A DNA stretch of 11,664 bases, taken from Hydrogenophaga sp. (GTDB lineage: Bacteria > Pseudomonadota > Gammaproteobacteria > Burkholderiales > Burkholderiaceae_C). Position 1 is the stretch's first letter. Every line of letters starts with the position of its first letter. The translations under genes and the position numbers were made by a program. The stretch covers positions 1-11,664 of the forward strand of contig JAUXXN010000281.1 of assembly GCA_030684755.1 (NCBI GenBank). Reading direction: 5' to 3'. Positions 6,407-10,591 of the stretch are shown here, one piece after another. Under the pieces are notes generated by a model. It saw only the letters and a list, made by a program, of their open reading frames with translations. It had not been told where the DNA came from and did not search any database.

Positions 6407-6464
6407 GGCGCGATGGCGGTGCATGCGAGCGGGTTGTTTAAGTTTCATGCACCAGTTTCTTGCA
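6407..6464 (+). promoter_or_regulatory. Two candidate NtrC boxes upstream of amtB
   Basis: Against the NtrC consensus TGCACC-N5-GGTGCA, TGCACCAGTTTCTTGCA (6448-6464) matches 10 of 12 and 6407-6423 (right half GGTGCA intact) matches 9 of 12. Their centres are 41 bp apart, about four helical turns, and lie roughly 64 and 105 bp upstream of the expected sigma-54 start site. Position and phasing fit an enhancer; the individual matches are imperfect. Confidence 0.45.
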
Positions 6465-6492
6465 GTGAAATCAATGTTACTGATAAGAAACA

Positions 6493-6509
6493 TTGGCACA
6501 CTCCTTGCA
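6493..6509 (+). promoter_or_regulatory. Sigma-54 (RpoN) promoter of amtB-glnK-tdm
   Basis: TTGGCACACTCCTTGCA contains TGGCAC-N5-TTGCA with GG (6495-6496) and GC (6507-6508) separated by exactly ten bases, a near-perfect -24/-12 element. Transcription should start near 6520, about 28 bases before the amtB start. This type of promoter needs an activator, almost certainly NtrC, under nitrogen limitation. Confidence 0.88.
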
Positions 6510-6547
6510 CGGCTTGAGATGTCCACAACCGCCACATGGAGTCTCCC

Positions 6548-7864: not shown

Positions 7865-7904
7865 TGAACCCCACGCCCATACGCAACCCATTAGGCAGAA
7901 CACC

Positions 7905-8243
7905 ATGAAACTTGTCACCGCCATCATCAAACCCTTCAAGCTCGACGAGGTGCGCCAGGCGCTCTCCGAACTGGGCACGCAGGGCATCACGGTCACCGAG
8001 GTCAAAGGCTTCGGGCGCCAGAAAGGCCACACCGAGCTGTACCGGGGCGCGGAATACGTGGTGGACTTTTTGCCCAAGGTGAAGCTGGAGGCGGCGGTGT
8101 CCGACGAGCGCTTGCCGTTGGTGATCGAGGCGATCGAGAAGGCCGCGCGCACCGGCAAGATCGGCGACGGCAAGATCTTCGTCACCGCTCTGGAGCAGGT
8201 GGTGCGCATCCGCACCGGCGAACAAGGCGACGAGGCGCTCTGA
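7905..8243 (+). CDS. glnK: PII signal protein GlnK
   Basis: This is a full-length 112-residue PII protein. Tyr51 in the T-loop ([15 protein letters not shown]) is the uridylylation site. GFGRQKGH (36-43) and the C-terminal [20 protein letters not shown], with Lys90, Arg101 and Arg103, form the ATP/2-oxoglutarate site. One change from the usual VxxVEQ is Leu at 97. GlnK reports nitrogen status and plugs AmtB when nitrogen is plentiful; its pairing with amtB is the classic arrangement and favours glnK over glnB. The stop TGA (8241-8243) shares its last base with the ATG of tdm (TGATG), indicating translational coupling. Confidence 0.95.
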
Positions 8244-10591
8244 TGGGCTGGCCTGGCGATGTGAGCGCCGCCCGACCCCCGGTGGCCACGCGGGTGCGTG
8301 AGCCCGCGCTGAGCCTGCGTACGCCCACGCTGGAGCGCTACCGCGTGTCCGGCGGCGGCCTGACGGTGGTGGCGCTGGCTGCGGGCGACGCGCTGGAGGT
8401 GATCGACCCCGAGGGCCAGCAAGCCTGCGAGTTGATGGCCTGGGACAGCGCGGGCCGCGACGCCCTGGCTGCGCTGGGCCTGCGCGCTTCGCCCGGCGCC
8501 ACCGGCGCAGCCCACCTGTTGCAGCGCCCGCACCCCGCGCTGCGCCGCCGGGGCGTCAACCTGGACCAACTACCCGCAGCCTGCCAACTCTGGCCCGCAG
8601 GCGGCTTGGCGGGCCAGCGCCAACGCTGCACCGCCACCGACGCGGTGCTGGTGCTGGTGTGTGCCCCCGGCACCGACAGCAGCGTGCACACCCAGAACGC
8701 ACCCACGCCGCTGGCCCTGCATGTGCACCGCAGCGGCAGCCGCATCCTCAGTGCCGTGCCCCTGCCCGAGCCGCTGGGCGAGGTGGTGGACGAGTTCACC
8801 ATTGCGCCCGGCACGGCGCGCAGCTACACCGTGGCCAAGGGTCAATACATCCAGGTGATTGACGTGGCGGGACGCCAGTGCTCCGACTTCGTGGCCTTCA
8901 ACCGCCGCGCGCTGGACCGGGGCACCGAACAAGAGCTGGACCCCACGGTCACGCGCACGCTGGGTGGCCGCGCCTACCCCGGGCCGGGCCTGCATTCGCG
9001 CTTTTTTGACCGCGAGATGCAGCCGGTGCTGGAGCTGGTGCAAGACACCGTGGGCCGACACGACACCTTCGGCCTGGCCTGCGCGGCGCGCTACTACGAA
9101 AGCATGGGTTACTTCGGCCACGCCAATTGCAGCGACAACCTCTCGCGCGAACTGGCGCCTTATGGCGTGCGCGCGCGGCCCGGCTGGCCCGCCATCAATT
9201 TCTTCTACAACACCGGCGTCGATGCCCACAACCAACTGACCATGGACGAACCCTGGTCGCGCCCGGGTGACCATGTGCTGATGCGCGCGCTGGACGACAT
9301 GGTCTGTGCCAACACCTCGTGCCCGGACGACATCGACCCCGCCAACGGCTGGATGCCGACCGACATCCACGTCCGCATCTACGCCGCCCAGGAGCGCTTC
9401 AGCATGGCCATTGCCCACCGACCCACCCCCGACGCCGTGCCCGAGATGACCCGCGAAAGCGGCTTCCACGCCGCCACCTCGGCGCTCACCCGCCAGTTCA
9501 CCGACTACCGGGGCTGGTGGACGCCCACGCGCTACGACGGCTTTGGCGCGGTGGCCGAGTACCACGCCTGCCGCGAGCAGGTGGTGGTGATGGACCTGTC
9601 GGCCCTGCGCAAATTCGAGGTCATCGGCCCCGACGCCGAAGCGCTGATGCAGTACACGCTGACACGCGACATCAAAAAGCTGGCCGTGGGCCAAGTGGTG
9701 TATTCGGCCCTGTGTTACCCGCACGGCGGCATGCTCGACGACGGCACGCTGCTGCGCCTGGGCCCCGACAACTTCCGCTGGATCTGCGGCGAAGACTACA
9801 GCGGCATCTGGCTGCGCGAGCAGGCCGAAAAACTCGGCATGAAGGTGTGGGTGAAGTCGGCCAGCGACCATATCCACAACGTCGCGGTGCAGGGCCCGCG
9901 TTCGCGCGAGTTGCTCAAGCAGATGGTGTGGTCACCCGGCACACAACCCGCGCTGGACAACCTGGGCTGGTTCCGCTTTCTGGTCGGCAGGCTCGACGAC
10001 CACAACGGCTGCCCGATCATGGTGTCGCGAACCGGCTACACCGGTGAGCTGGGTTACGAGGTGTGGTGCCACCCCAGCGACGCGCCGCGTGTGTGGGCAC
10101 GTCTGTGGGAACTGGGTGCCCCGCTCGGTCTCGCGCCGCTGGGTCTGGACGCGCTGGACACCTTGCGCATCGAAGCCGGCCTGGTGTTCGCCGGCCACGA
10201 GTTTTGCGACCAGACCGACCCGTTCGAGGCGGGCATTGGGTTTTGCGTGCCGCTCAAGAGCAAGGCAGACGACTTCATCGGCCGCGACGCCCTGATCGAG
10301 CGCAGCGCGCACCCGCAGCGCAAGCTGGTGGGCTTGCAGCTCGATGGCAACGAAATGGCCGCGCACGGCGACGGCGTGTTTGTGGGCCATGCGCAGGTGG
10401 GCGTGGTCACCAGCGCCACACGCTCGCCACTGACGGGGCAGAACATTGCGCTGTGCCGCATGGCCGTGTTGCATGCGGCGGCGGGCACGCGGGTGGAAGT
10501 GGGCAAGCTCGACGGCCACCAGAAGCGCCTGCCCGCCACGGTGTCGGCCCCCATCTTTTACGACCCCGACAAGAGCCGCGTGCGCGCCTGA
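8243..10591 (+). CDS. tdm: Trimethylamine N-oxide demethylase Tdm (DUF1989-GcvT fusion)
   Basis: This 782-residue protein joins an N-terminal DUF1989 region (about 30-400) to a C-terminal GcvT-type tetrahydrofolate domain (about 415-775: YDGFGAVAEYHACREQVVVM, RTGYTGELGYEVW, GLDALDTLRIEAGLVFAGHE). This two-part design is that of Tdm, which cleaves trimethylamine N-oxide to dimethylamine and formaldehyde and can pass the one-carbon unit to tetrahydrofolate. Candidate metal ligands in the DUF1989 half are Cys296 (HANCSDN), Cys355 and Cys360 (VCANTSC), with Asp215 in RQCSDFVAF. Residues 32-68 resemble 184-220, suggesting an internal DUF1989 duplication. A convergent tmm gene on the other side supports the call. 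Its start overlaps the glnK stop by one base, so it lies in the NtrC-type ammonium operon. A less likely alternative is another DUF1989-GcvT demethylase with a different methylamine substrate. Confidence 0.85.
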   Translation: MGWPGDVSAARPPVATRVREPALSLRTPTLERYRVSGGGLTVVALAAGDALEVIDPEGQQACELMAWDSAGRDALAALGLRASPGATGAAHLLQRPHPALRRRGVNLDQLPAACQLWPAGGLAGQRQRCTATDAVLVLVCAPGTDSSVHTQNAPTPLALHVHRSGSRILSAVPLPEPLGEVVDEFTIAPGTARSYTVAKGQYIQVIDVAGRQCSDFVAFNRRALDRGTEQELDPTVTRTLGGRAYPGPGLHSRFFDREMQPVLELVQDTVGRHDTFGLACAARYYESMGYFGHANCSDNLSRELAPYGVRARPGWPAINFFYNTGVDAHNQLTMDEPWSRPGDHVLMRALDDMVCANTSCPDDIDPANGWMPTDIHVRIYAAQERFSMAIAHRPTPDAVPEMTRESGFHAATSALTRQFTDYRGWWTPTRYDGFGAVAEYHACREQVVVMDLSALRKFEVIGPDAEALMQYTLTRDIKKLAVGQVVYSALCYPHGGMLDDGTLLRLGPDNFRWICGEDYSGIWLREQAEKLGMKVWVKSASDHIHNVAVQGPRSRELLKQMVWSPGTQPALDNLGWFRFLVGRLDDHNGCPIMVSRTGYTGELGYEVWCHPSDAPRVWARLWELGAPLGLAPLGLDALDTLRIEAGLVFAGHEFCDQTDPFEAGIGFCVPLKSKADDFIGRDALIERSAHPQRKLVGLQLDGNEMAAHGDGVFVGHAQVGVVTSATRSPLTGQNIALCRMAVLHAAAGTRVEVGKLDGHQKRLPATVSAPIFYDPDKSRVRA

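Follow-up and report, generated by a model that had tools for sequence, protein, structure and literature searches.

The question raised by this locus is why a gene for the breakdown of trimethylamine N-oxide (TMAO) stands directly behind an ammonium transporter gene and its regulator, in the order amtB-glnK-tdm, in a Hydrogenophaga species. The window, i.e., the whole stretch of 11,664 nucleotides that was analysed, is the entire contig C564 of a 3.62-Mb metagenome-assembled genome (MAG) that is 82.6% complete. The three genes probably form one sigma-54-dependent unit of a regulon for acquiring nitrogen from methylated amines, in which AmtB would import or recapture methylammonium together with ammonium. 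The parts are known; new is their combination, in which an AmtB-GlnK pair belonging to a methylated-amine cluster heads a sigma-54 operon that runs into tdm. Its most interesting part is the altered binding site of AmtB.

The amtB-glnK-tdm operon and its conservation

The three genes proposed in a preliminary description of this DNA are real, as judged by their Pfam and NCBIfam profile matches. The AmtB protein matches PF00909 (367 bits) and exceeds the cut-off of the amt model TIGR00836 (404.3 against 343.3 bits), and it scores 470.6 bits with the AmtB model PRK10666, under its cut-off of 657. GlnK matches PF00543, falls slightly short of the cut-off of PRK10665 (179.4 against 181 bits) and contains both Tyr51 of the T-loop and Arg47, residues with functional roles in PII proteins. 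Tdm scores 1186.6 bits with the TMAO demethylase family model (Tdm NF053776, curated cut-off 1100 bits) over profile positions 9-763 of 763, and it can be aligned with 9q59, a solved Tdm structure, over residues 12-781. Two aspartates (in the rows QCSDF and CPDD) are kept in this protein; they are replaced by alanine in the variant structure 9q5a and are probably catalytic.

The genes lie head to tail, with 40 bases between amtB and glnK and a one-base overlap of glnK and tdm (TGATG at 8241-8245), preceded by a GAGG 7 bases before the tdm start. This stop/start overlap had been described before, and both it and a GAGG at equal distance are found in 7/7 glnK-tdm junctions. A scan of positions 7800-10800 detected no sigma-70-like site and no terminator-like site ahead of the tdm start; four terminator-like sites (1.9 expected) lie within tdm, two of them on the plus strand at 10219-10234. 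The three genes are predicted to be co-transcribed.

The survey comprised 66 tdm-bearing loci from genome contigs, the window being counted in addition. The order amtB-glnK-tdm is not peculiar to this genome, since it is present in five of these loci, from a second Hydrogenophaga MAG (L034), a Rhodoferax MAG (L035), Malikia spinosa (L036), M. granosa (L065) and a Burkholderiales MAG (L081). Together with the window this gives six genomes, all Burkholderiales, and seven copies of the operon, because Rhodoferax has two. Two loci (L092 from Macromonas and L095 from Pseudomonas) are truncated inside tdm and are uninformative on order, and the remaining 59 have different arrangements. Half of the loci (33 of 66) have a tmm gene (trimethylamine monooxygenase) ahead of tdm, in the same orientation and with its end no more than 1 kb away.

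In the Rhodoferax MAG (L035, 435-8524) the two amtB-glnK-tdm copies flank tmm, and the second tdm diverges after about 46 residues and reaches a stop at 84. When the window is compared with the other Hydrogenophaga MAG per 100 bases, amtB and its upstream region are 67-91% identical and positions 7900-8500 (glnK and the start of tdm) 94-100% identical, and amtB seems to have been swapped in one of the two, with a breakpoint near 7900. The tree of GlnK proteins is mostly unresolved, with five window-type GlnKs forming one clade and the Rhodoferax GlnK outside it. In 11 Zoogloea-type loci (L084-L091, L093, L094 and L099) the Tdm match begins only at residue 89-187, and the N-terminal part of the protein seems to be different or missing.

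Coordinates of the features of the window
Feature	Position	Strand	Remarks
HutD-family protein	1408..2133	-	PF05962; start approximate; part of cluster module
DAO-family FAD enzyme, candidate N-methylglutamate oxidiser	2145..3329	-	PF01266; 79% identity to Cupriavidus cluster enzyme
LysR-family regulator	3519..4547	+	Start approximate
hutG, N-formylglutamate deformylase	4544..5362	+	TIGR02017, 356 bits (cut-off 279)
NtrC-like block 1, TGCGCCAAAAAGGTGAG	6374..6390	+	3 mismatches to TGCACYN5RGTGCA
NtrC-like block 2, GGCGCGATGGCGGTGCA	6407..6423	+	3 mismatches to the consensus
NtrC-like block 3, TGCACCAGTTTCTTGCA	6448..6464	+	2 mismatches to the consensus
Sigma-54 -24/-12 promoter, TGGCACACTCCTTGCA	6494..6509	+	Zero mismatches to TGGCAY-N5-TTGCW
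amtB, methylamine-cluster-specific paralogue	6536..7864	+	Cys codons at the S219 (7292-7294) and N216 (7283-7285) positions
glnK (PII)	7905..8243	+	Arg47 and Tyr51 kept
tdm, TMAO demethylase (DUF1989 and GcvT domains)	8243..10591	+	Start overlaps glnK stop
tmm, trimethylamine monooxygenase	10732..11664	-	5' end truncated at contig end; faces tdm

Promoter and upstream blocks

The -24/-12 promoter, formerly called near-perfect, is perfect: TGGCAC-N5-TTGCA is found precisely 42 bases ahead of the amtB ATG in all seven operon copies. In the whole assembly, TGGCAY-N5-TTGCW occurs at 15 sites and the reversed pattern at one. The alignment of 200 upstream bases (seven regions from six genomes) contains three more conserved islands amid less conserved sequence: GCGCCAAAA.GGTGA in block 1, in which all bases except one are invariant, CGGTGC in block 2, invariant in 7/7, and GCAC.AGTTTC.TGCAGTGAA in block 3, whose named bases are likewise invariant in 7/7. 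Their conservation supports reading the blocks as putative binding sites, and they are predicted to bind NtrC from their resemblance to TGCACYN5RGTGCA, which we take to be the consensus of NtrC sites. Blocks 1 and 2 are 33 bases apart in the window. The two candidate NtrC boxes of the preliminary description are therefore three conserved blocks, each of them weak: block 3, the best single match in the window, is equalled by about 7% of shuffles and is not significant alone. Both rpoN and ntrC are present above cut-offs in the source genome.

A HipB-like helix-turn-helix gene (5953-6240, minus strand) lies upstream of the operon in the window, and the second Hydrogenophaga MAG has a counterpart followed by an open reading frame of 438 amino acids that is not seen at that spot in the window. 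On a plasmid of Aquabacterium olei (L189, 21745-23772), a gene for a regulator with GAF, sigma-54-activator (Sigma54_activat) and Fis domains adjoins the cluster amt, and it is possible that its product is a substrate-specific activator.

A second AmtB-GlnK pair bound to methylamine genes

The pair had been described as the standard nitrogen-starvation pair of amtB and glnK. The source genome, however, has a canonical glnK-amtB on another contig (C611), as well as a further amtB on C447. The family survey included 299 genomes, with up to five AmtB candidates scored in each. AmtBs at least 73% identical to that of the window are found in five of them (G000, G167, G245, G185 and G246), and the other AmtBs among the matches listed reach at most 59% identity. 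Tdm above the cut-off is restricted to the identical set of five genomes, and in a further genome (G137) the end of a contig holds a Tdm fragment, the assembly containing no window-type AmtB. The DNA pattern coding for FCGGC, the motif with the altered residues, is again found in the same five genomes only (reversed control, none). In the class-wide sample of 369 genomes, no genome other than the window's reaches E 1e-160 with an AmtB.

Outside the family, this AmtB follows the methylamine genes. Nine of the 35 genomes reached via tdm loci (drawn from 36 of the 66 loci) have a cluster AmtB, three of the window type and six from Pseudomonas; five of these six have it no more than about 4 kb from tdm, the sixth (G681) on a separate contig near purU and folD. 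Among plasmids, which were selected by AmtB alone, nine records have an AmtB of the window type at E 1e-110, and six were inspected (A. olei, Cupriavidus metallidurans, Methylobacterium DM1, Paracoccus aminovorans and two of Paracoccus yeei). The neighbours include dmm or gmaS/mgs genes in five of the six, and in Methylobacterium an AraC gene and sarcosine-oxidase/Mgd-type genes; no tdm is present in the inspected stretches of the Cupriavidus and Methylobacterium plasmids. In Pseudomonas, Cupriavidus, Paracoccus and Methylobacterium, window-type AmtB is thus accompanied by methylamine genes, and it is tied to the methylamine pathway in general and not to tdm alone, because the plasmid copies adjoin pathway genes and some of these stretches lack tdm.

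In all 11 genomes in which a glnK adjoins the cluster AmtB it lies downstream (duplicate loci of one genome were merged manually; the script's raw tally was 15 downstream and 11 none in 26 rows). In 50 rows of AmtBs with 45-60% identity, nearly all of the housekeeping type, glnK is upstream in 43, downstream in two and not found in five. A tree of 69 Amts, which does not include the Amt of Paracoccus sp. MA (unalignable at the motif), places the 18 cluster AmtBs in one clade with a support of 100/100. The distribution of the paralogue, its clade and the reversed glnK order reject the standard pair; by these comparisons, amtB-glnK of the window is a second, methylamine-cluster-specific paralogue pair in reversed order. 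It resembles the glnK-amtB nitrogen-starvation operon controlled by sigma-54 and NtrC in the adjacency of AmtB and PII genes, which here follow a -24/-12 promoter; compared by gene order, tree and sequence of AmtB, it differs from it in the reversed order, the distinct clade, Cys219 and the appended catabolic gene. The cluster AmtB is found a second time in an Azohydromonas-type genome, where a contig begins with it (G246, C204, 10-1236).

The altered ammonium-binding site

The window AmtB retains F107, W148, D160, H168, F215 and H318 of Escherichia coli AmtB (1xqe, 2nuu), and thus the Phe gate, W148, D160 and the twin His; unlike the E. coli protein, it has cysteine at both outer-site positions N216 and S219, the latter being Cys253 of the window protein. 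The S1 site of E. coli AmtB consists of S219, W148 and F107 according to passages in PMC10433425 and PMC7256485; its serine is missing here, so that the protein has a variant S1 site while membership in the Amt family is kept. Among 99 Amts extracted from the loci, cysteine occupies position 219 in 13/13 cluster AmtBs and in 29 distant Amts (25-28% identity) located beside tdm in Pseudomonas and Acidimicrobiia; the remaining 57 have serine. Cys219 is also found in five further cluster AmtBs of the tree (A. olei, Cupriavidus, Methylobacterium, P. aminovorans and P. yeei). Position 219 is Cys in 119 and Gly in one of the 120 best database matches to the window AmtB (out of 8000); for the distant Pseudomonas type, the 120 best of 2131 matches show Cys in 118, Ala in one and an unreadable residue in one. 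By the tree, on which residue 219 requires two changes, the Ser219 position has changed at least twice. In E. coli AmtB the change S219A raises methylammonium uptake (PMC10433425, PMC7256485), and the loss of the Ser219 hydroxyl in pathway-bound Amts would therefore fit a better handling of methylammonium.

Two broader generalizations were tried and abandoned. Cys219 is not a universal mark of methylamine-cluster Amts, as serine types exist. The idea that the FL.GC clade is strictly methylamine-bound is unsupported, since a second Thioclava Amt has the cysteine and no annotated methylamine genes within 8 kb; this clade also takes in Thiomicrorhabdus. In Ruegeria conchae no amt is annotated within 16 kb of tdm.

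The rest of the methylated-amine pathway

The preliminary account of the locus was incomplete, as it mentioned neither tmm on the minus strand nor the module of HutD, FAD enzyme, LysR and hutG genes on the left. The tmm fragment scores 535 bits with NF058570 over positions 143-442 of 443 (below the cut-off of 675, being a fragment), and its relatives among structures are 6hns/2xve. A sequence with one mismatch to the sigma-54 pattern, TGGCATG[TC]CT[TC][GA]TGCT, is found exactly 74 bases before the tmm ATG in 5/5 genomes of the lineage that were examined, and no such site with up to two mismatches precedes tmm in either of two genomes of other arrangement. The gmaS gene on C340, truncated at the contig end, shares 91% identity with its M. 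spinosa counterpart over 267 residues; it has AGGCACAAATGTTGCA 106 bases ahead of its start, and [AG]GGCACAAATGTTGCA is found 106-107 bases upstream of gmaS in both Malikia and on C340. Given these conserved sigma-54-like sites of tmm and gmaS, nitrogen control seems to extend beyond tdm to further genes of the pathway in this lineage. Contig C682 carries mgsA (part), mgsB, mgsC, a DmmA-family gene, a reductase gene, a dmmD-like GcvT gene, purU and folD, as well as a gene similar to the alpha subunit of a haem-dependent N-demethylase.

These are the enzymes of the Tmm/Tdm/Dmm/GmaS-Mgs pathway of Methylocella, Ruegeria and Paracoccus, with tmm beside tdm and mgs-dmm-purU-folD on C682. Unlike in the clusters known elsewhere, tdm of the window follows and overlaps glnK in an operon that begins with amtB and has a sigma-54 promoter. 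A further difference from Alphaproteobacterial clusters, whose proteins exceed the TIGR01373 cut-off in 3/3 cases (682-688 bits), is that no subunit of the SoxB/MgdB type above this cut-off was found in the source genome and eight relatives; the best scores there are 122-136 bits, four of them being the cluster FAD enzyme.

In Malikia and on the Cupriavidus plasmid, a module of FAD enzyme, EtfB, EtfA (the electron-transfer flavoprotein, ETF), HutD and ETF-QO genes, with LysR and hutG, accompanies gmaS-mgs (L104-L106, L193 and L204). The copy of the window (1408-5362) lacks etfAB and ETF-QO. From its gene content, the module may be an ETF-linked route of N-methylglutamate oxidation that ends at N-formylglutamate and HutG, of which no description was found in the open-licence literature searched. 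The second Hydrogenophaga MAG has, on the minus strand between tdm and tmm (L034, 8343-12628), a QhpR-like AraC gene, a glutamine synthetase-like gene, a PhyH oxygenase gene and a GATase gene, with a perfect sigma-54 site ahead of them.

Nitrogen control and alternative explanations

The preferred reading is that, under nitrogen limitation, phosphorylated NtrC would activate amtB-glnK-tdm. Tmm would convert trimethylamine (TMA) to TMAO, Tdm would split this into formaldehyde and dimethylamine, from which Dmm and GmaS/Mgs enzymes (C682, C340) would lead via methylamine to glutamate-bound nitrogen. The pathway-specific AmtB, whose outer site lacks the Ser219 hydroxyl, would most likely import or recapture methylammonium along with ammonium, and its own GlnK would close it when nitrogen is ample. 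The prediction that a need for nitrogen switches on TMAO breakdown is a good one, because order, overlap and promoter are conserved, rpoN and ntrC are present, and tmm and gmaS have sigma-54-like sites.

Parts of this have precedents. Figure legends already place amt in methylated-amine clusters, as 'repeatedly co-occurring' (PMC7574528) or as an 'unspecified ammonium transporter' (PMC4744692; also PMC5520151), and no description of an amtB-glnK-tdm operon, or of Cys219 in such Amts, was found in the open-licence literature searched. To say that tdm is mostly regarded as a methylotrophy gene gives too little weight to papers in which methylated amines are treated as nitrogen sources (PMC5520151, PMC7574528, PMC13390433); the last describes them as an important share of marine dissolved organic nitrogen.

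Several observations weigh against nitrogen control by NtrC or against a uniform role of AmtB. Across the seven copies, single NtrC-like matches are equalled by 5-45% of shuffles, and the sigma-54 site is weak or missing before the related amtB of Azohydromonas (G246), A. olei and G681, some starts in this upstream scan being approximate (several Pseudomonas, G185 and G246 genes). No glnK lies within 1 kb of the cluster AmtB in 9 of 20 genomes or records. Serine-type Amts stand in methylamine clusters of Acinetobacter PK01 (two), Paracoccus aminophilus and Pseudomonas marginalis (L063, adjoining mgsC). The regulators reported for the pathway in PMC13390433 are the AraC-type TmaR and TmoR, and tdm of Ruegeria is activated by TmaR, which is responsive to a methylamine catabolite; a word search of this text gave zero matches for 'amt', 'glnK' and 'ntrC'. 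In an ntrC mutant of Pseudomonas stutzeri A1501, whose gene arrangement was not compared here, methylamine metabolic activity is reported as enhanced, not reduced (PMC8443478).

Accordingly, the operon could depend on sigma-54 and respond to methylated amines through a cluster-encoded activator (a sigma-54 activator, LysR, AraC or XRE protein) in place of NtrC, ammonium only modulating its expression. The control of tdm by TmaR, the weakness of the single NtrC boxes and the GAF-Sigma54_activat-Fis regulator adjoining the same amt type on the A. olei plasmid favour this explanation, but no sigma-54 activator was found among the 10 scanned window proteins, the upstream blocks are conserved and resemble NtrC half sites at their 33-base distance, and the genome has ntrC and rpoN, and we regard it as unlikely. 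It is also conceivable, if somewhat doubtful, that AmtB merely recaptures ammonium leaked during methylamine demethylation and that Cys219 is a neutral lineage marker. The serine-type Amts that serve like clusters agree with this, and so does the single clade of AmtB-like cluster members, for which one event suffices; against it, Cys219 recurs beside tdm in a second, very distant Amt clade (FLGGC in Pseudomonas, FYAAC in Acidimicrobiia), serine relatives lie between the two clades and the residue is absent from all 57 other Amts. Chance juxtaposition or misassembly, which a window made of one entire contig of an incomplete MAG could suggest, is refuted by the isolate genomes of M. spinosa and M. 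granosa, with the same order in three further MAGs and promoter and overlap conserved, and deserves practically no credence.

A sigma-54-dependent nitrogen-acquisition unit remains the explanation that we favour. A bolder form of it, which we offer tentatively and consider rather improbable, is that the Amts in clusters for methylated amines serve as dedicated permeases for methylammonium (perhaps for larger methylated amines too) with at least two origins of the Ser219-to-Cys change, and that in this lineage such an Amt, with its own GlnK, has been joined to tdm, tmm and gmaS in a sigma-54 nitrogen regulon, so that the use of TMA and TMAO would be nitrogen-scavenging and not methylotrophic.

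Significance

Methylammonium serves chiefly as a tracer for AmtB and, to our knowledge, its entry into cells that live on it is poorly defined. The AmtB clade tied to this pathway, in which a change in the ammonium site has become fixed, is a concrete and testable candidate for this entry, and annotation could use Cys219 as a marker residue. From the operon one would expect these bacteria to demethylate TMAO according to their need for nitrogen, and the altered channel site within a tdm operon points to a dedicated uptake of methylated nitrogen in a small bacterial group.

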